Assembly (NCBI GenBank): GCA_944389015.1
Contig: CALXKS010000069.1
Span: 1-64,000 of the forward strand
Origin: an uncultured Spirochaetaceae bacterium
Lineage (GTDB): Bacteria > Spirochaetota > Spirochaetia > Sphaerochaetales > Sphaerochaetaceae
DNA length: 64,000 nt
Direction of reading: 5' to 3'
The translations under genes and the position numbers were made by a program. Shown here one piece after another: positions 8,523-39,856 of the stretch. Below the pieces are notes generated by a model. It had not been told where the DNA came from. It did not search any database and saw only the letters and a list, made by a program, of their open reading frames with translations. The first letter of the stretch is position 1, and each line of letters starts with the position of its first letter.

Positions 8523-8531
8523 ATTGTATCA
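8523..8531 (-). promoter_or_regulatory. Extended -10 promoter of manA (leaderless)
   Basis: Minus strand TGa-TACAAT, then 6 bases, then the manA ATG. The TGA is also the MATE stop codon. Confidence 0.55.
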
Positions 8532-9914
8532 CAGCCCGGTATGATTCTGTGCCTTCCCTGCTTCTTTTCCATTCAGCATTCTCTGGAATGAGACAAAGAA
8601 GAAGACTGCGGCAATGAATGTTATGAAATCGCTAAGAGGCTGTGCGATCTCAACACCGAGGATTCCGAGGTGGGAAGGCAGGATAAGGATCAGTGGAATG
8701 AAGCATATTCCCTGCCTTGCCATCGCAAGCACTGTTGCGGGGAGGGCCTGTCCTGTGCTCTGAAGTCCCATATTCGTTGTCGTTACAAGACCTGTCAGAG
8801 GCAGAAGGATTGCCTGCAGACGGAGCGCCATCACCCCGATCTCCATCACTTCAGGATCGTCAGCCCTGAAAGCACCGATGAGAGGATGGGCAAAGATGAT
8901 GCATACAGCAGCTGCAGCTGTCATTATCACAGTACCGGTGATGGCTGTGAAGCGGACAGCCTCCTTGACCCTGCCATAAAGCTCTGCCCCGTAGTTGAAT
9001 GATGCGACAGGCTGGAATCCCTGACCGAAACCAAGCATCGCACTGAATGCGAACATCGAAATCTTTCCTGCAATGCTCATCGCGGCTACAGCAGCATCCC
9101 CGAATGACGCGGCTGCGACATTGAGGGAGATGGAAGCGATGCTTGCCAGTCCCTGCCTCATCAGAGTCGGCATTCCTATCTTTACAATCTGGATATATGT
9201 CCCAACACTGCCGGACACCATCTTCAATGATATCCTGACACTGCTCTTTCCTCTTAGGAAGAATGAGAGAAGGATGCAGAATGAAACAAGCTGCGAGAGT
9301 GCAGTCGCCATTGCCGCTCCAGCTGTACCGAAACCGAATGCGAAGATGAAGATCGGATCAAGAACGATGTTCAGCATACCACCAGTCGTTATCCCGACCA
9401 TTCCAAGCATGGCCTTGCCTTCTGCCCTGAGATAGTTGTTCATGACAAACGAAAGGCACATCACAGGGCATCCTATGAAGATATACTGCGCATATGCCTC
9501 TGCATATGGAAGTATAGTCTCAGTAGCGCCAAGAAGCCTCATCAATGCGGGACGGAAGACTATACCGATGAATGCAAGCACAAGTGAGAGGACAAGGGCG
9601 AAGAAGAAGCCGGAGGAAGCTGTCTTTGTCGCATCCTCATCCCTTTTTGCGCCAAGCTGCCTGGAAAGAATATTTCCAGCACCCATTCCGATAGTGAATC
9701 CGATAGCCTGGATGATAGCCATGATGGAGAATACGATTCCCACAGCACCAGCGGCACTGGTCCCGAGCTTCGCCACGAAGTATGTATCGGCAGTGTTGTA
9801 TATCGCCGAGACAAGCATGCTTATGATCGTAGGGACAGCAAGACGTCCGATAAGCTTGGGAACGGGGGTCTCGGTCATCTTCCTGTAGTGCTCCATCCTT
9901 TCTTTATCGTCCAT
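8529..9914 (-). CDS. MATE family efflux transporter (1)
   Basis: A 461-residue inner-membrane exporter with about 12 hydrophobic helices in two related halves; the substrate is probably cations or drugs and is unknown. The first helix region contains the family pattern SAIYNTADTYFV. The start at 9914 has GGAGG five bases upstream. The longer open frame, to 9980, would run into the tRNA-Gly gene on the other strand and is rejected. It is clearly paralogous to the MATE at 15508-16893: both begin with a MTETPV segment and share long stretches such as IGF followed by GxGxGN. manA lies downstream. Confidence 0.95.
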   Translation of the reverse strand: MDDKERMEHYRKMTETPVPKLIGRLAVPTIISMLVSAIYNTADTYFVAKLGTSAAGAVGIVFSIMAIIQAIGFTIGMGAGNILSRQLGAKRDEDATKTASSGFFFALVLSLVLAFIGIVFRPALMRLLGATETILPYAEAYAQYIFIGCPVMCLSFVMNNYLRAEGKAMLGMVGITTGGMLNIVLDPIFIFAFGFGTAGAAMATALSQLVSFCILLSFFLRGKSSVRISLKMVSGSVGTYIQIVKIGMPTLMRQGLASIASISLNVAAASFGDAAVAAMSIAGKISMFAFSAMLGFGQGFQPVASFNYGAELYGRVKEAVRFTAITGTVIMTAAAAVCIIFAHPLIGAFRADDPEVMEIGVMALRLQAILLPLTGLVTTTNMGLQSTGQALPATVLAMARQGICFIPLILILPSHLGILGVEIAQPLSDFITFIAAVFFFVSFQRMLNGKEAGKAQNHTGL

Positions 9915-9969
9915 ACCATCCTCCCATAGCTTGCAAAAGAATGCCCTTTGGTATATCCTCAGCGCATAT

Positions 9970-10041
9970 GCGACCGTCATATAGTGGCTATTACCTCAGC
10001 TTCCCAAGCTGAAGATGCGGGTTCGATTCCCGTCGGTCGCT
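9970..10041 (+). tRNA. tRNA-Gly (anticodon CCC)
   Basis: A 72-base cloverleaf. The acceptor GCGACCG/CGGTCGC pairs perfectly. The anticodon stem TCAGC/GCTGA holds loop TTCCCAA, giving CCC. T-loop TTCGATT, discriminator T, no encoded CCA. A -10-like TATATC lies at 9952-9957, and a terminator follows at once. Confidence 0.95.
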
Positions 10042-13731: not shown

Positions 13732-15060
13732 ATGGCAGCAAAAGATCTTACAAAAGGCGGAATCATAGGGCCGATGCTCTCATTCGCCCTTCCACTGATA
13801 CTAGGCAACATGCTTCAGACACTGTATAACGCTGCCGATTCGGTCATCGTAGGCCGCTTTGTCGGACCTGATGCCCTTGCTGCTGTCGGTTCAGCATATT
13901 CCCTGATGACATTCCTCACATCGCTGATGATCGGGCTGTCGATGGGAGCAGGGATCTCTTTCTCATACTTCTATGGATCAGGGGATAGGAAGAGCCTCAG
14001 GTCAGCGCTGGGTATATCATTCATGATGATAGGCATCATCACAGGAGCGATAACAGCACTCTCGTTTGCCCTTCTCGGCTGGATACTCAGGATCCTCTCC
14101 GTTCCTGAGGGCATAGTGCCGCTCATGTCCGATTACCTTCTTGTGATCTTCACCGGCCTTCCTGCCCTCTTTCTCTTCAACTTCTATGCATCTGCGCAGC
14201 GTGCAGTCGGAAACAGCCGCATAGCGCTCCTCTTCATGGCAGTATCCGCGCTTATGAACATAGCCCTCGATCTCTACTTCGTGATCTCCCTTAGATGGGG
14301 TGTCTGGGGAGCTGCGGTTGCCACTATGATATCCCAGTACGCGGCAGGGGTCGGGATAATGCTCTATACCTTGCTTTCATCGAAGCTGCTGTCATTCTCC
14401 TTCCGTGACATGAAGCCTGAGAGGAAGCTGATGAAGGAGATCTCATCGCTTTCAGTGCTCACATCTATGCAGCAGTCGATAATGAATCTCGGGATCCTCA
14501 TGGTTCAGGGGCTTGTGAATTCATTCGGCACAGGGGTCATGGCGGCATTCGCTGCAGGAGTCAAGATCGATAGCATCGCCTACATGCCCCTGCAGGAATT
14601 CGGGAATGCATTCTCCACATTCGTAAGCCAGAACATGGGAGCATCAAGGCATGACAGAGTAAGAAAAGGTGTTGTCTTTGCATTCCTCACCGCACTTCTC
14701 TTCGGACTTGCAGTCTCGGCAGTCGTATTCCTCATCCCTGATCAGCTGATGGCTGTCTTCATCGACCCTTCGGAAACGGATATCATCGATATCGGCAGAG
14801 GATATCTGAGAATCGAAGGATCCTTCTATGTCCTCATCGGATTCCTTTTCCTTTTCTATGGAATATTCCGTGCACTGAAGCATCCTGCGATCTCCCTTCT
14901 TCTCACCATCATCAGCCTTGGTCTCAGGGTTCTTCTTGCCTATATGATGGCAGGACCAATTGGCGAGACGGGAATATGGATGAGCATTCCAATCGGCTGG
15001 GCTATTGCCGATGCCGCAGGTTTCATCATCTACAGGAAGGTCTCTGGGAAAACTGCATGA
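13732..15060 (+). CDS. MATE family efflux transporter (2)
   Basis: A 442-residue membrane exporter of the MATE superfamily with about 12 hydrophobic helices. It belongs to the DinF/NorM-like branch with NAADSVIVGRFVGPDALAAVG in the first helices, and is paralogous to the MATE at 33555-34910, which has nearly the same segment. Substrate unknown. Divergent from topB; the start has no Shine-Dalgarno and an extended -10 seven bases upstream. Confidence 0.95.
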   Translation: MAAKDLTKGGIIGPMLSFALPLILGNMLQTLYNAADSVIVGRFVGPDALAAVGSAYSLMTFLTSLMIGLSMGAGISFSYFYGSGDRKSLRSALGISFMMIGIITGAITALSFALLGWILRILSVPEGIVPLMSDYLLVIFTGLPALFLFNFYASAQRAVGNSRIALLFMAVSALMNIALDLYFVISLRWGVWGAAVATMISQYAAGVGIMLYTLLSSKLLSFSFRDMKPERKLMKEISSLSVLTSMQQSIMNLGILMVQGLVNSFGTGVMAAFAAGVKIDSIAYMPLQEFGNAFSTFVSQNMGASRHDRVRKGVVFAFLTALLFGLAVSAVVFLIPDQLMAVFIDPSETDIIDIGRGYLRIEGSFYVLIGFLFLFYGIFRALKHPAISLLLTIISLGLRVLLAYMMAGPIGETGIWMSIPIGWAIADAAGFIIYRKVSGKTA

Positions 15061-15507: not shown

Positions 15508-16893
15508 ATGAGAATACAGACAGCAGATGAGAAATTCAGAGAGATGACCGAGACTCCTGTACGGAGTCTCATTCTTTCGCTTTCAGTGCCGACAGTGATA
15601 AGCAATCTCATATCGACGCTGTACAATGCGGCGGATACATTCTTCGTCGGACAGATATCAACAAGCGCATCGGCAGCAGTAGGGGTTGCATTGTCGCTTC
15701 AGGCTATAATCCAGGCGATAGGCTTCTTCTTCGGGCAGGGAAGCGGGAACAACATGTCCCGCAGACTCGGTGCCCACGATGAGAAGACAGCTGAAATACT
15801 CGCATCGACGGGATTCTTCTCTGCTCTGATCTTATCCGCTCTTGTCACCCTTCTCGGACTTCTGTTCCTGCGTCCCCTATCGATCTTCCTAGGCTCGTCC
15901 GAGACCATCCTTCCATATGCCATGGACTATATGTTCTGGATTCTTCTTTCCGCTCCATTCATGGCGGTATCGCTTGTGCTTAATAACCAGCTGCGGTTCG
16001 AAGGCAATTCCTTCTATTCGATGATTGGCCTGACCACAGGAGGAATCCTCAACCTCTTTCTCGATCCATTATTCATCTTCGTCTTCGGACTCGGGATATC
16101 AGGAGCGGCAATCGCAACCGCTATAAGCCAGGTTGTGAGCTTCATAATCCTTTTCATCCTCTCAGAGCGCATAGGGACAGTGAAGATCAGACCGCGGTCA
16201 TTCAGGCCTTCTCTAAGAATACTGGGCACGATCACGAACGGAGGATTGCCTTCGCTATGCAGACAGAGTGTCGCATCTGTCGCGATGATCGCACTCAATA
16301 ATGCTGCACTGCCATATGGAGATGCCGCAATCGCGGCAATGGCAATCGTGAACAAGATCGGCAATTTCACGAACTCAATCCTCATCGGCGTCGGACAGGG
16401 CTATCAGCCGGTATGCGGCTACAACTACGGTGCGAAGCTGTACATACGCGTAAAGGAAGGATTCTGGTTCTGCGTGAAGCTTATGTCATTCGTGCTTCTT
16501 GCCCTTTCTGTCATCGAGTTCATCTGGGCCACCCCCATCGTCGGATTCTTCAGGAAAGGCGATCCGGAAGTCATCGCAATCGGAGACATAGCACTGCGCC
16601 TCAGATGCTTTACCCTTCCTCTCTCCTCATGGCTGATCATCAGCAATATGCTTCTTCAGACCACAGGGAAGATGTGGAGGGCTTCAATACTCGGATTCGC
16701 AAGACAGGGTCTGATGCTTATCCCGCTTGTACTGATCCTTCCCCCTCTTATCGGAATATGGGGCATACAGATAGCCCAGCCGTTTGCGGATATCATTGCA
16801 TTCGCAATCTCGATTCCGATGACGACAGGAATACTCAGAGAGCTCAACAACGAAGCATGGGAAGAGAACTTCCTGCAGAATACTGCAGAATAA
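15508..16893 (+). CDS. MATE family efflux transporter (3)
   Basis: A 461-residue membrane exporter with about 12 helices, starting MRIQTADEKFREMTETPV. It is a close paralogue of the MATE at 8529-9914, sharing the MTETPV start, the YNAADTFFVGQ segment and the same length. No clear Shine-Dalgarno precedes the ATG; a TAATAT lies 13 bases upstream. Substrate unknown. The gene stands alone and is followed by an AT-rich gap. Confidence 0.94.
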   Translation: MRIQTADEKFREMTETPVRSLILSLSVPTVISNLISTLYNAADTFFVGQISTSASAAVGVALSLQAIIQAIGFFFGQGSGNNMSRRLGAHDEKTAEILASTGFFSALILSALVTLLGLLFLRPLSIFLGSSETILPYAMDYMFWILLSAPFMAVSLVLNNQLRFEGNSFYSMIGLTTGGILNLFLDPLFIFVFGLGISGAAIATAISQVVSFIILFILSERIGTVKIRPRSFRPSLRILGTITNGGLPSLCRQSVASVAMIALNNAALPYGDAAIAAMAIVNKIGNFTNSILIGVGQGYQPVCGYNYGAKLYIRVKEGFWFCVKLMSFVLLALSVIEFIWATPIVGFFRKGDPEVIAIGDIALRLRCFTLPLSSWLIISNMLLQTTGKMWRASILGFARQGLMLIPLVLILPPLIGIWGIQIAQPFADIIAFAISIPMTTGILRELNNEAWEENFLQNTAE

Positions 16894-31051: not shown

Positions 31052-32149
31052 CTAGATTGTATTCAGGGTGAATGGTTTCGGCAACAGCTCCGAGAACTTC
31101 ATCTCAACTCTGCTGCGCTCCGAGGCAAGAATCACAGCAGTATCGGGATGTGCGAACTCTGCAAGGACCTGAAGACATACGGCGCAAGGAGGAGATGGAG
31201 GATCGCTTTCAGTGAATACGACGATAAGATCTATCGATGTCCTGCCCTCCTCTGAAATAGCTGTCGTGACTGCATTCCGCTCTGCGCATATGGTAGCGCC
31301 ATATGATGAATTCTCCACATTGGACCCTGTGTGGATTCTTCCGGATGCTGTGACAACCGCTGCACCTACCTTGAATCTGGAGTAAGGAGCATATGCATTA
31401 AGGCGTGCTTTTTCTGCCATCTCCAACGCATGGTCTTTAAGATAATCCGTGATGACCGCATGCATAGCTCTCCTTCCTTCGCCGATCAGCTCAGCTGCAT
31501 CATCAGCGGAGCCGAAAGCTGCTAGATCCGATACAACACGATCAGCCCCAGCTCCATAGAGCTCTGCCACGGAATATGTGGATCCAGTACCTATGGCATA
31601 GCACCCGGCGCTCTTCGCGCTCCTGATTCCCATCACAGAGTCCTCGAATACAATAGCCTCCTTTCCATCAAGACCCAGCCTGATCAGGCATAGCGAATAG
31701 ATATCGGGGAAAGGTTTGTTGCGCTTTATATCCTCACCTGATGCTATGAAGTCGAAGTCAGCCTCTTCCAGCCCTATGCATGAGATATTCATCAATACCT
31801 TCCAGCGGGGTGCTGATGATGCAAGCGCTGTCATTATCCCCCGCTTCCGTGCGCTTCTCACGATTTCCTTCGCACCGGGAAGCGAAAGATCAAGATCCGC
31901 GGCTCTCTTCCCATACTCCTTCCTGAAAAAAGCAGAGGCATCCTCGTATGAATATGGAGGACCTGAGAGCCCGAGATCCTTAGCAGGCCCATCGAAGAAT
32001 ATACGTTCTCCTCCCCCAAGATAGCGGGAGAAATCAGAGCTGCTGGCATTCACTCCGATCGATCTGAAGTAGCTTACTCCGACAGAGACTGAGAGCTCCT
32101 CGCTCTCCGCCAGAACTCCATCCATATCGAATAGGAAAGCCCTGATCAT
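31052..32149 (-). CDS. HAD phosphatase - cytidine deaminase fusion protein
   Basis: A 365-residue two-domain enzyme. Residues 1 to about 225 form a HAD hydrolase of the beta-phosphoglucomutase-like branch: FDMDGVLAESE (residues 7-17), the lysine in IKRNKPFPD, and VFEDSVMGIRSAKSAG. Residues about 230-365 form a homotetrameric-type cytidine deaminase: PYSRFKVGAAV, CAERNA with the catalytic Glu, and PCAVC supplying the zinc cysteines. Together they could dephosphorylate a pyrimidine nucleotide and deaminate the cytidine released. The gene overlaps dihydropyrimidinase by 4 bases, which supports a pyrimidine role. The HAD substrate is inferred. Confidence 0.92.
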   Translation of the reverse strand: MIRAFLFDMDGVLAESEELSVSVGVSYFRSIGVNASSSDFSRYLGGGERIFFDGPAKDLGLSGPPYSYEDASAFFRKEYGKRAADLDLSLPGAKEIVRSARKRGIMTALASSAPRWKVLMNISCIGLEEADFDFIASGEDIKRNKPFPDIYSLCLIRLGLDGKEAIVFEDSVMGIRSAKSAGCYAIGTGSTYSVAELYGAGADRVVSDLAAFGSADDAAELIGEGRRAMHAVITDYLKDHALEMAEKARLNAYAPYSRFKVGAAVVTASGRIHTGSNVENSSYGATICAERNAVTTAISEEGRTSIDLIVVFTESDPPSPPCAVCLQVLAEFAHPDTAVILASERSRVEMKFSELLPKPFTLNTI

Positions 32150-33554: not shown

Positions 33555-34910
33555 TTAGAGATCATGGCGTCTGAATGCCCGGTCAAGCCAGTCTGCCTTC
33601 AGAAGATAAACGATGAAAAGAACGGAGGATAGGACCCATGTGATGGGATATGCAAGATATACCAGCTCTATCGTATGGGAGATCGAGAGAGCAACCGTTA
33701 TGTAGATGACGCGGAAGATGCACCAGGCCCCGAGCATTATAGCCATTGGTACAGTCGCCTTACCCGCTCCTCTGAGGACCCCTGCTATGCAGTGCGAAAG
33801 CGCAAGGACGCAGTAGAAAAGACACTCGATCCTCGCCTGCCTTACTCCGAAGGAGACCACATCCGGCGATGAATTGAACAGGGATATGAGCTGTGGCGCG
33901 GAAATAAAGAAGAACAGTCCGATGCACTCTGCCATCAGAACCGAGCATAATACTCCGAACTTCACACCCTTGATCACTCTGTCTCTCTTCCCTGCCCCGA
34001 TGTTCTGTCCGACAAACGTTGTCAGCGACAATGAGAAACTTGTGATGGGAAGGAATGCGAAGCCCTCGATCTTCGAGTATGCACCGCTTCCTGCGACCGC
34101 GAAGGAGGCGAATGTATTTATATTTGTCTGGACGATTATGTTCGCGAAGTTTATCACGGAGTTCTGCACACCGGAGGGAAGTCCATAGGAGATAATGCGC
34201 CTGAGCATTGCCCTGTCGATCCTGATATCCCTGATCCGCACCTTATATGGCGTATCATCATGCATGAGCTTCCTCATGCAGAGAAAAGAGCTCACAGCCT
34301 GTGACATTATCGTTGCGAACGCTGCTCCTCCGACACCTGTGCGGACGACACCGACAAGAAAGAGATCCAGGAATATATTGATGATCGAGGATAGAATCAG
34401 ATAGTAAAGGGGATGACGGCTGTCACCCAAGGCATTCATGATTCCCATCATTATGTTGTACAGGACCGAGAATATCACACCGAGAGAGTAGATACGGAAG
34501 TAGCGGATGCTCTCCGGAAGCACATCCTCCGGAGTCTGCATCCACCTGAGAATCGTAGGAGTGAACAACGTTCCAAGGACAACGAGGACTGCTCCTGCGG
34601 CTATTCCGAACGCTATATCGGTATGGATTGCTTTTCTCAGCTTCTCCATATCCCTGGCCCCGAAATAGCCTGCGATGACAACACCTGCTCCGATGGCCAT
34701 TCCATTGAAGAAACCCACCATCATGTTTATAAGAGGTGTCGATGAGGAGACTGCTGCAAGGGCCTCCGGTCCAACGAAATTGCCTACTATGACGGAATCG
34801 GCGGCATTGTACAGCTGCTGGAAGAGATTCGAAAGCAGCAGGGGAATAGCAAAAAGAAGCATATTCCTCTCTATAGGACCTGTCGTGAAATCTATACCCT
34901 TCCCATCCAT
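33555..34910 (-). CDS. MATE family efflux transporter (4)
   Basis: A 451-residue membrane exporter with about 12 helices. The N-terminal block YNAADSVIVGNFVGPEALAAV is nearly the same as in the MATE at 13732-15060, marking a paralogous pair. Substrate unknown. No Shine-Dalgarno; TAAAAC lies 6 bases before the ATG with TTGCGG 18 bases further up. The gene lies 41 bases upstream of the dihydropyrimidinase start, which has its own promoter. Confidence 0.94.
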   Translation of the reverse strand: MDGKGIDFTTGPIERNMLLFAIPLLLSNLFQQLYNAADSVIVGNFVGPEALAAVSSSTPLINMMVGFFNGMAIGAGVVIAGYFGARDMEKLRKAIHTDIAFGIAAGAVLVVLGTLFTPTILRWMQTPEDVLPESIRYFRIYSLGVIFSVLYNIMMGIMNALGDSRHPLYYLILSSIINIFLDLFLVGVVRTGVGGAAFATIMSQAVSSFLCMRKLMHDDTPYKVRIRDIRIDRAMLRRIISYGLPSGVQNSVINFANIIVQTNINTFASFAVAGSGAYSKIEGFAFLPITSFSLSLTTFVGQNIGAGKRDRVIKGVKFGVLCSVLMAECIGLFFFISAPQLISLFNSSPDVVSFGVRQARIECLFYCVLALSHCIAGVLRGAGKATVPMAIMLGAWCIFRVIYITVALSISHTIELVYLAYPITWVLSSVLFIVYLLKADWLDRAFRRHDL

Positions 34911-36088: not shown

Positions 36089-37342
36089 TCAGAAGAGCTC
36101 ATGATAATCCGTGCCTATGCTCTTCGACATGTTCGGTTTCTGAAGGATATCAAAGAGAGCGGAAGGCACAGGGATCTCCTTTCCGATGATCGGCTCGACG
36201 ATCTTATCGAACTTCGCAGGATGGGCAGTGGCTACAACAACTGTATCATCTGAAGAATAGTGATCGCGTCTCACACGCTCTCCGCATGCTGTATGCGGAC
36301 AGATGATATGGCCTTTCTCTGCAGCCTCCTCGCCGATTGTCCTCCTTATCTCATCATCTGAGACAGAGAACGAACGCACATTGTCCCTGAACTCCTCTAT
36401 GGAGGGGAACATGGCAAAGAGCCTCTCCATATTCGACGGGGCTCCGACATCCATAGCATTCGCAAGGGTTTCAACAGATGGCCGTGGCCTGTACTCCCCT
36501 GTCTCAAGATAATCAGGGATGGTCCTGTTGGCATTCACAGCAAGCACGATGCTCTTTATAGGAGCGCCCATAGCCTTCGCCCAGAAAGCTCCAGTCGAGT
36601 TCCCGACATTGCCAGAGGGGATGATGAACACAGCTTCCTTCCCGTACTTCGCCTTATAGAGCGATGAGGCATATACATAGTAGGCCATCTGCGGGAGAAG
36701 CCGTCCCAGATTTATGGAGTTGGCGCTTGAAAGGCCTGAGATGGACCTGTCCATAAAAGCTTCCTTGACCATCTTCTGGCAGTCATCGAAGGTACCGTCA
36801 ACCTCATAGCTCTCGATATTCCCATCCCAGCATGTAAGCTGCTTCTGCTGTCTTTCAGCTACACGGCCCTTAGGGAAAAGGACCTTCACCGAGAGATGCT
36901 CCCTGTTATGGAAGGCAGAGGCCACTGCGCCCCCTGTATCTCCGGACGTCGCAACGAGGATGCAGAGATCCCTGTTCCGCTTCTCAAGAAGCTTCTCCAT
37001 GGAGAAAGCCAGGAAACGGGCTCCGAAGTCCTTGAACGCCGCAGTCGGACCATAGAAGAGCTCCAGCGTGTCCTTTCCTTCATTGCTGAAGAAAGGAACA
37101 GGGAATGAGAACGCATTCCTTGCGATCTCCTCAAGGCTCTCCTCGAGCTCATCACCTTCAAAATATGGCTTCATAGCCTGATACATCGCATACCAGGCAC
37201 CCTTTGAAAGGGTGAAATCCTCTGGGATGCGGGGTATGCTCTCAGGGATGAAAAGACCTCCATCCGGAGCAAGGCCTGTAAGTATGGCATCTGATGCCGT
37301 GAATCCATCGCCGCCTATTGATCTTGTTGAAACGTACTTCAT
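36089..37342 (-). CDS. thrC: Threonine synthase
   Basis: A PLP enzyme turning O-phosphohomoserine into threonine; 417 residues. The PLP lysine lies in PTAAFKDFGARF, and the phosphate cup in ATSGDTGGA and SGNVGN. It follows thrA on the same strand with a gap of 9 bases. An AGGAGGAG precedes two adjacent ATGs; the second, better spaced, is chosen. Ends 4 bases from the ung stop (convergent). Confidence 0.97.
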   Translation of the reverse strand: MKYVSTRSIGGDGFTASDAILTGLAPDGGLFIPESIPRIPEDFTLSKGAWYAMYQAMKPYFEGDELEESLEEIARNAFSFPVPFFSNEGKDTLELFYGPTAAFKDFGARFLAFSMEKLLEKRNRDLCILVATSGDTGGAVASAFHNREHLSVKVLFPKGRVAERQQKQLTCWDGNIESYEVDGTFDDCQKMVKEAFMDRSISGLSSANSINLGRLLPQMAYYVYASSLYKAKYGKEAVFIIPSGNVGNSTGAFWAKAMGAPIKSIVLAVNANRTIPDYLETGEYRPRPSVETLANAMDVGAPSNMERLFAMFPSIEEFRDNVRSFSVSDDEIRRTIGEEAAEKGHIICPHTACGERVRRDHYSSDDTVVVATAHPAKFDKIVEPIIGKEIPVPSALFDILQKPNMSKSIGTDYHELF

Positions 37343-37351
37343 CATCTCCTC

Positions 37352-39760
37352 CTATATCCTTGAGCCGAGATACGCGCTTAAGCGGAGTATATCAGCAAAG
37401 ACGCCGCCTGCTGTGACCTCCGGCCCAGCTCCTGGTCCTTTTATGACCAGCGGCTCCTTGTTATAGCGTGCCGTGGTGAATGCGATCACATTGTCCGTCC
37501 CGCTTGCAGTGGAGAACGGATGATCTGCAGGATACTCGGAAAGCGAGACAGAGCACACCCCGTCCTCAACCTTCCCAACATACCTCAGCTTCATGCCTTT
37601 CTTCGCTGCATCTTCATATAGAGCAAGCATATGATCGTCTATCTCAGGAAGACGTGACAGGAACTCATCCTTCGGCACATTCCTCAATGACTCAGGGACA
37701 AGCGACTCCACGTTGATATCTGAGACCTCGGTCCTGTACCCAAGCTCACGGGCAAGGATGACAGTCTTTCTCGCAACATCCATCCCAGAAAGATCATCCC
37801 TTGGATCCGGCTCAGTGAATCCAAGCTCCTTGGCTTTGAGGACAAGCGATGAGAACGGAACGGTGCCATCATACATGGAGAAGAGCCATGCAAGCGTTCC
37901 GGATACCATTCCCTCGATCCTGTATACTGTATCACCGGTCTCCCTGAGATCCTTGAGGGTGCAGATGACAGGCAGGCCTGCACCTACCGTCGTCTCATAT
38001 AGGAACTTCCTGCCAGTGCGGAGCGCAGATGCCATCAGCTTCTCATAATAGTCATATGGCCCTGATCCTGCCTTCTTGTTCGGGGTTATCACATGGAAGC
38101 CCATATCGATATACTTCCTGTACTGCCTTGCCCTCTCCTCGGAGGAGGTGCAGTCAACAAGGACTGCATGGGGATAGTAGGCTGCATTTATATGAGAGAG
38201 GAATACCTCCTCGTTGTATACCACGCTCTTCTTGCTGAACTCCTCCCGCCATGCCGAGAGATCTATGCCGCTTTCGGAGAGAAGCATCTTCTTCGATGTA
38301 GCGATTCCCCTTATGCGGATATCGAGATCGAACTCACGGCGGAGCCTCTCGCTCTCAGCTGCAAGCTGATCAAGAAGTGTTCCTCCGATATTCCCTGGAC
38401 CGAAAAGACCGATTGAGAGAGTCTGGGCAGAGAGGAAGAACGAGGAATGCAGTGACCTCAGAGCCTTACCGCTCTCGCTGCTCTTTATAACTGCGCTGAT
38501 ATTCCGCTCGCTTGACCCCTGGGCTATCGCCCTGATATTCACACCGGCCCTGGCGAGGGACGAGAAGAACTTGCCTGCAACACCGATATGACCCGGCATT
38601 CCCTCGCCTACTGCGGCAAGTATCGCAAGATCGCTCTCAGTTGTCACAGAAGCGATGCTGCCATTGCCGATCTCCTCTGCAAACTCCCTTCTTATCGTCT
38701 TCTCTGCGCTCTGCGCTTCCTTCTGGGGGACTGCGAAGCAGATGGAATACTCCGAAGAGGCCTGTGATATGAGGATTACGGATATCCCCTCCCTGCGGAG
38801 AGCAGTGAAGAGGCGCGAAGAGAAACCTGGCACACCTGACATACCTGAGCCCTCTACGTTCATGAGCGCAACACGGCGGACAACGGAGAATGCCTTGACC
38901 GATGTCTTCTCATCCGGGTAGGTCTCCCTGGAAACAAGAGTGCCTTTGTTCTCCGGCTCTCCCCAGTATCTGAGATGGATCGGCAGCGAACGCTGTACAG
39001 CAGGCAGGAATGACTGCGGATGGATTATAGGCGCACCGAAGAACGAAAGCTCCGTTGCCTCATCATATGTAAGGTGCTCAATAACGCTGGAAGCAGGAAC
39101 ATCGCTTCTCGATGCAGAGCACAGGAGAGAACGCGAATTCCAGAATGTCAGCGAGCCATTATGCATAGCTGCAATCAAAGATGCAGTATACTCGCTACCA
39201 CCATCTCCATGGACCTTTCCTGATGCATCGGCAGACCCCGGAGCAGAGTACAGATTCCCTGAGACGAGGACAACGCCTGAGGGAAGCGAACTTCCCTTCA
39301 CTGCCTCTGAGGCATCCAGAACGGCAGACTCTGCGCCCTTTGATATGAAATAGGCATTAAGGATAAGGGAAAGAAAGGAACCTGTAAGCTCTGACAGATG
39401 CTTTCTTGCAGCATCCGGGGCATCCTCCAGGATCCAGAGCGCGCGGAGCACGTCCTCGATCTCCGAGAAGGACTTATCCATGCTGTCGGTGACAGAGCCT
39501 TCATTGCCATCCCCGAGGATCGATGATGCTGTCTCCTCCCAGGCATTCTGGCTCTTCTCAAGCCTCGACCAGAGCTTCTCATCCCTGGCTGCTGCAGATG
39601 CGATCAGACTATCCATAGAAAGATCCGATACCGCCACCGGTGATATAACGAAAACCTGGGTATCAGCACTCTCGCTGCTGTATATATTGAAAAGCTTCTG
39701 AGCTCCCTGACTTGATGTGAGCATTGCGCCTTCAAGCGCATGAACATGTACGGATGCCAT
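37352..39760 (-). CDS. thrA: ThrA-type fusion: degenerate aspartokinase plus homoserine dehydrogenase
   Basis: An 802-residue protein with the ThrA layout: kinase-like domain (1 to about 280), two ACT repeats (about 310-450) and homoserine dehydrogenase (about 455-802). The dehydrogenase has the NAD(P) loop IGLFGPGNIGG, and both ACT repeats keep their ligand motifs (SQASSE and AQGSSERNIS). The kinase half looks inactive. The family's first strand KFGGTS is replaced by HALEGAM. The RNGSDYSAA motif survives only as GDGGSEYTAS, and WTDVDGV..DPR has become WNSRSLLCSASRSD. It probably works as a regulated homoserine dehydrogenase, with aspartokinase supplied elsewhere. Good Shine-Dalgarno (AGGAGG). 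Confidence 0.93.
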   Translation of the reverse strand: MASVHVHALEGAMLTSSQGAQKLFNIYSSESADTQVFVISPVAVSDLSMDSLIASAAARDEKLWSRLEKSQNAWEETASSILGDGNEGSVTDSMDKSFSEIEDVLRALWILEDAPDAARKHLSELTGSFLSLILNAYFISKGAESAVLDASEAVKGSSLPSGVVLVSGNLYSAPGSADASGKVHGDGGSEYTASLIAAMHNGSLTFWNSRSLLCSASRSDVPASSVIEHLTYDEATELSFFGAPIIHPQSFLPAVQRSLPIHLRYWGEPENKGTLVSRETYPDEKTSVKAFSVVRRVALMNVEGSGMSGVPGFSSRLFTALRREGISVILISQASSEYSICFAVPQKEAQSAEKTIRREFAEEIGNGSIASVTTESDLAILAAVGEGMPGHIGVAGKFFSSLARAGVNIRAIAQGSSERNISAVIKSSESGKALRSLHSSFFLSAQTLSIGLFGPGNIGGTLLDQLAAESERLRREFDLDIRIRGIATSKKMLLSESGIDLSAWREEFSKKSVVYNEEVFLSHINAAYYPHAVLVDCTSSEERARQYRKYIDMGFHVITPNKKAGSGPYDYYEKLMASALRTGRKFLYETTVGAGLPVICTLKDLRETGDTVYRIEGMVSGTLAWLFSMYDGTVPFSSLVLKAKELGFTEPDPRDDLSGMDVARKTVILARELGYRTEVSDINVESLVPESLRNVPKDEFLSRLPEIDDHMLALYEDAAKKGMKLRYVGKVEDGVCSVSLSEYPADHPFSTASGTDNVIAFTTARYNKEPLVIKGPGAGPEVTAGGVFADILRLSAYLGSRI

Positions 39761-39856
39761 CATTCCTCCTGCCGAATTGCTCTAATCGTATACTTTTCAC
39801 GCCTTTTTCAACAAGAGCTATGGCAGAATAATGCAACAGGAGCATATGAGATGCAG

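Follow-up and report, generated by a model that had tools for sequence, protein, structure and literature searches.

Every sequence criterion tested shows the kinase half of a spirochaetal ThrA-type fusion protein to be dead, and the protein is probably a threonine-regulated homoserine dehydrogenase (HSDH) in which a pseudo-aspartokinase acts as a structural and allosteric scaffold, a reading that draws on sequence comparison and a predicted structure. The gene lies in a 64,000-nucleotide stretch of DNA from an uncultured Spirochaetaceae bacterium, referred to in full as the window, and the source genome is a 2.03 Mb assembly in 83 contigs that is 83% complete. The gene occupies positions 37352 to 39763 of the minus strand, on which its domains and motifs and the neighbouring thrC are likewise located, and forms a single frame of 803 codons with zero internal stops; a second ATG at 39760 represents an alternative start. 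Domain profiles and structure matches reveal the ThrA arrangement of aspartokinase (AK), two ACT domains and HSDH in one chain. Pfam detects two ACT_9 domains, NAD_binding_3 and Homoserine_dh, each strongly, while only a remnant of AA_kinase is found (30 bits, residues 130-264). Based on this remnant, the alignment and the predicted fold, the pseudo-aspartokinase domain comprises residues 1-284 (38912..39763). The two ACT domains are intact and span residues 285-445 (38429..38911), with aligned effector motifs ISQASSE in ACT1 (residues 332-338, 38750..38770) and IAQGSSER in ACT2 (residues 413-420, 38504..38527). The HSDH domain follows at residues 447-803 (37355..38425) with PNKK and EPDPRDDLSGMDVARK intact.

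The threonine synthase gene thrC (36089..37345) begins 6 bp beyond the thrA stop codon and, judged by its match to the family model TIGR00260 (247.6 bits; cut-off 167.1), is intact; it neighbours thrA in nearly all relatives as well. The earlier note, made from the letters of this DNA, had described retained ACT repeats, a retained dehydrogenase and an intact adjacent thrC, all of which agree with these results. The ThrA-type protein is probably the sole HSDH of the source genome, since a second one was not found in the 83% complete assembly; semialdehyde dehydrogenase-family genes do occur there. No Rfam family scored above threshold in the region upstream of thrA. Elsewhere in the window, inspection by eye identified four MATE-type efflux transporter ORFs within 27 kb (8529-9980, 13732-15060, 15508-16893 and 33555-34910) and, at 31052-32149, an apparent fusion of a HAD-type phosphatase with a cytidine deaminase.

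The kinase half has lost its catalytic motifs at sites distributed along the domain. Residue numbers of reference positions follow E. coli K-12 ThrA, and the alignment contains 172 ThrA sequences in all. KFGGTS aligns with HALEGAM (site VHALEGAM, residues 7-14, 39722..39745), GE(127) has become TG with G128 replacing the catalytic Glu E127 (39380..39382), RNGSD reads DGGSE (residues 187-191, 39191..39205) and the WTDVDGVYTCDPR motif is replaced by WNSRSLLCSASRS (residues 208-220, 39104..39142), with WTDVDG..DPR appearing as WNSRSL..ASR. Individual replacements are K5 to A, G7 to E, E127 to G, R204 to D, D208 to E, T227 to N, D228 to S and D230 to S. The protein consequently lacks the aspartokinase motifs KFGG, GE, RxGSD and WTDVxG, and five of the five key ATP-/aspartate-binding residues of aspartate kinase (EC 2.7.2.4) are replaced. 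The changes concentrate on columns that are invariant among intact enzymes, which, from this invariance and from established aspartokinase knowledge, we take to be the catalytic ones. Columns associated with the fold are retained in the dead set (W208, E235, A236, E238, L239, F242, G243, H248 and P249). Motifs that are shifted yet present are ruled out by the flanks, as register is maintained in all 172 sequences at the invariant W, along the ELSFFGA..HP stretch and through the ACT domains; the absence of KFGGTS and of the Asp-rich motif, first noticed without any alignment, thus reflects replacement. Chance and assembly or sequencing error are likewise excluded because 35 genomes of the genus have the identical loss, 34 of them with proteins 57-94% identical to that of the source genome, and other families have it as well.

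Dead ThrA proteins form a class of their own among the spirochaetes. Scored on five key positions (K, E, R, D, D), the sequences separate into a dead class that keeps at most three and an intact class that keeps at least four. The dead class comprises 96 sequences, all spirochaetal, 80 of which retain none of the five, while all five are present in 75 of the 76 intact sequences and four in the last one, which is gapped at the fifth position. Position 208 is D in 76 of 76 intact sequences; in the dead class it is E in 95 of 96 and Q in the remaining one. Both ACT glutamines are conserved in the dead class (96 and 94 of 96), as are PNKK and EPDPRDDLSGMDVARK, the catalytic residues of the dehydrogenase. 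Decay of the kinase is graded, in that some members at the least eroded end of the series (L079, L202, L203, L204 and L225) retain K and R, with one G, E and D gone. Apart from one Sphaerochaeta, the relatives that carry names are uncultured Spirochaetaceae or Spirochaetales, almost all of them metagenome-assembled genomes (MAGs).

Trees were built from ACT and HSDH columns only, leaving out the trait itself, by quick searches that contain some long branches. In both samplings, one of 33 dead with 19 intact sequences and the other of 39 with 26, the dead ThrAs occupy one side of one branch with an SH-aLRT value of 100. Because the dead set forms one clade at this value, the trees indicate that the kinase was lost once, anciently, within the spirochaetes, and that the loss spans families. 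Within the class, the dead clade extends over six or more families (f1, f3, f4, f17, f22 and f25), and intact ThrA is found there in f5 (L047), f24, f42 and f45, as well as in every non-spirochaete relative read. The dead kinase half is a lineage-wide trait and not a peculiarity of a single gene. A recent pseudogene is ruled out by the intact frame, the single ancient clade and the low omega values given below.

Dead ThrA is nearly always accompanied by a separate LysC, which would take over aspartate phosphorylation. The source genome contains one further aspartokinase, a 432-aa LysC (L003) above the cut-off of the curated model NF006540 with intact kinase motifs, the separate lysC that the earlier note had suggested looking for. 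Of 76 dead-ThrA genomes, 73 encode a LysC whose identity to it is roughly 40% or higher, and kinase motifs are intact in 42 of the 42 copies read; in G208 the LysC is represented by fragments at contig ends. LysC was not found in three dead-ThrA MAGs (G020, G022 and G075; 95, 82 and 85% complete). Among genomes with intact ThrA, a second aspartokinase was not detected in G039, G162, G266 and G276, while others, many of them treponeme-type, do have one of a more distant kind. A second aspartokinase is therefore insufficient as the sole cause of the loss; redundancy permits loss without forcing it. In the likely history, a separate LysC, either present from before or gained at the time, made the ThrA kinase dispensable in one lineage, and this kinase then would have died through loss of its phosphoryl-transfer residues. 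Pathway entry in dead-ThrA organisms appears to rest on LysC alone.

The retention of the dead half may be explained by a role in threonine control of the dehydrogenase. The ACT region of ThrA lies between the two catalytic halves and binds threonine, and E. coli ThrA fragments with HSDH but no kinase are desensitised towards threonine. We propose that the kinase half of a bifunctional ThrA ancestor was retained as a structural and allosteric module lacking catalytic activity, one that would position the ACT regulatory core and the oligomer, with bound threonine then inhibiting the dehydrogenase. Removal of the domain would be resisted because threonine control of HSDH passes through it.

It is unlikely that the pseudokinase-ACT half instead acts in trans, as a regulatory subunit that places LysC or another pathway enzyme under threonine control. 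We weigh this reading mainly because of a stand-alone AK-ACT-ACT protein in G046 (L249:4453-5835), which has no dehydrogenase in cis to regulate. Like the fusion, the G046 protein has a dead kinase, intact ACT motifs, a spirochaete host and thrC as its neighbour, with which its gene overlaps; unlike the fusion, it lacks HSDH. Its congener G072 (L255) encodes a stand-alone AK-ACT protein, likewise linked to thrC and without a cis dehydrogenase, with a partly dead kinase and retained ACT motifs, and the stand-alone aspartokinases of sister genera are intact. By these sequences, the G046 pseudo-aspartokinase represents a second, independent loss in another spirochaete family. The regular co-occurrence of LysC with dead ThrA would also suit a trans regulator, and Pyrococcus, whose paired aspartokinase subunits (TIGR02078) are considered here by model name alone, offers a possible precedent for a non-canonical aspartokinase partner, although its subunits have no HSDH fusion. 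However, the LysC of the source genome is of a distant type (ca. 23-27% identical to ThrA over the shared part) and sits on another contig, and for the fusion the HSDH in cis is the simpler target. That spirochaetes have twice or more made dead threonine sensors controlling pathway enzymes including LysC in trans, once as the HSDH-fused clade and again as the stand-alone G046 and G072 proteins, is a doubtful though conceivable generalization.

The pseudo-aspartokinase domain is under purifying selection and is predicted to preserve the aspartokinase fold. Nei-Gojobori estimates put omega for this domain at 0.04-0.11 in 10 of 10 close pairs, which exceeds the values for ACT and HSDH in most of the ten pairs and lies far below 1. 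Within the genus, the dead domain averages 48% identity, compared with 68% in ACT and 72% in HSDH. An AlphaFold2 model of the protein (pLDDT 87, pTM 0.74) matches the threonine-sensitive aspartokinase of Methanocaldococcus jannaschii (2hmf, 3c1m and 3c1n) as the closest fold over residues 5-444 with Z scores of 34-35; this enzyme differs in being an active kinase without a dehydrogenase. The match to the threonine-bound entry 3c1n has a Z score of 35.3 and an rmsd of 2.4 over 423 aligned residues, while active-state entries tie in Z score and show larger rmsd values (3.7-3.8); the smaller rmsd is only a hint as to the conformational state of the model. The predicted ACT part matches the regulatory domain of E. 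coli ThrA (6mx1, Z 21.7, rmsd 1.5) and the predicted HSDH part matches yeast HSDH (1ebf, Z 42.6). A predicted fold that is kept, lost catalytic residues, conservation across species and purifying selection together characterize the domain as a putative pseudoenzyme.

The dead domain changes more quickly than ACT and HSDH do, so that it is to some extent in slow decay. This rate, together with a ca. 100-aa deletion in two reduced genomes, is what a merely decaying relic would show, one with no role beyond solubility and tolerated because deletion is rare. We regard such a relic as very unlikely, given omega values that are not near 1, a single ancient origin, an intact predicted fold and full length of the domain in all lineages read except g32. 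In that group, the ThrA proteins of two 1.2 Mb genomes (L197 and L198; G208 and G231) are shortened to 715-720 aa by the deletion, which removes part of the pseudokinase, and in their ACT2 domain TTASPxDK stands in place of IAQGSSER, with HSDH left intact. The pattern fits a joint decay of pseudokinase and ACT effector motif and counts as a single event because the two are sister genomes. Loss of part of the domain and of the ACT2 motif with HSDH kept also fits the scaffold model. The suggestion of the earlier note that the pseudokinase may survive as a scaffold or allosteric module is thus consistent with the predicted fold, the purifying selection and the g32 proteins.

Re-use of the old active site for binding or converting some other small molecule, to which the near-universal D to E replacement at position 208 and the new residues conserved throughout the genus at the former nucleotide site (WN.RSxL..AS..DVP) might point, is scarcely credible given that the nucleotide-site Lys, the GG pair, Thr and Asp are jointly lost in most members. 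In E. coli, thrB is located between thrA and thrC; it is absent between them in the spirochaete locus, and among the genus members searched no homoserine kinase scored above the curated cut-offs of TIGR00191, TIGR02535 or TIGR00938 despite the presence of thrC. A homoserine-kinase role of the dead domain filling in for thrB is unlikely, as TIGR00191 also stays below cut-off in treponeme-type genomes with intact ThrA and the loss of nucleotide-site residues counts against it.

One of the closest known systems is E. coli ThrA (aspartokinase I-homoserine dehydrogenase I, NF006959), which shares with the spirochaete protein the domain order, the link to thrC, the ACT effector motifs and the HSDH residues. 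The two are 42-43% identical in ACT and HSDH, in contrast to 21% in the kinase half, where all key catalytic residues are replaced. The model NF006959 (cut-off 726 bits) is blind to the dead kinase: the source protein scores 818.3 bits and seven other dead ThrAs score 750-967, and all eight would receive the name bifunctional aspartate kinase/homoserine dehydrogenase I. Curated annotation therefore calls a whole spirochaete lineage aspartate kinases despite the lost residues, which affects metabolic models. Dead ThrA represents a natural separation-of-function experiment in which evolution removed the kinase chemistry and kept the remainder, and it makes testable whether threonine inhibition of the dehydrogenase needs the kinase half. 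A full-text search of non-subscription literature on aspartokinase and ThrA found no paper describing a dead aspartokinase in ThrA, and priority of the finding is not established; Lo et al. 2009 is said to be a review of aspartokinase evolution. Among the sequences collected, L091 (CAMCBU010000001.1) is titled as a Klebsiella pneumoniae MAG and encodes a ThrA of environmental gammaproteobacterial type, so its title looks wrong.
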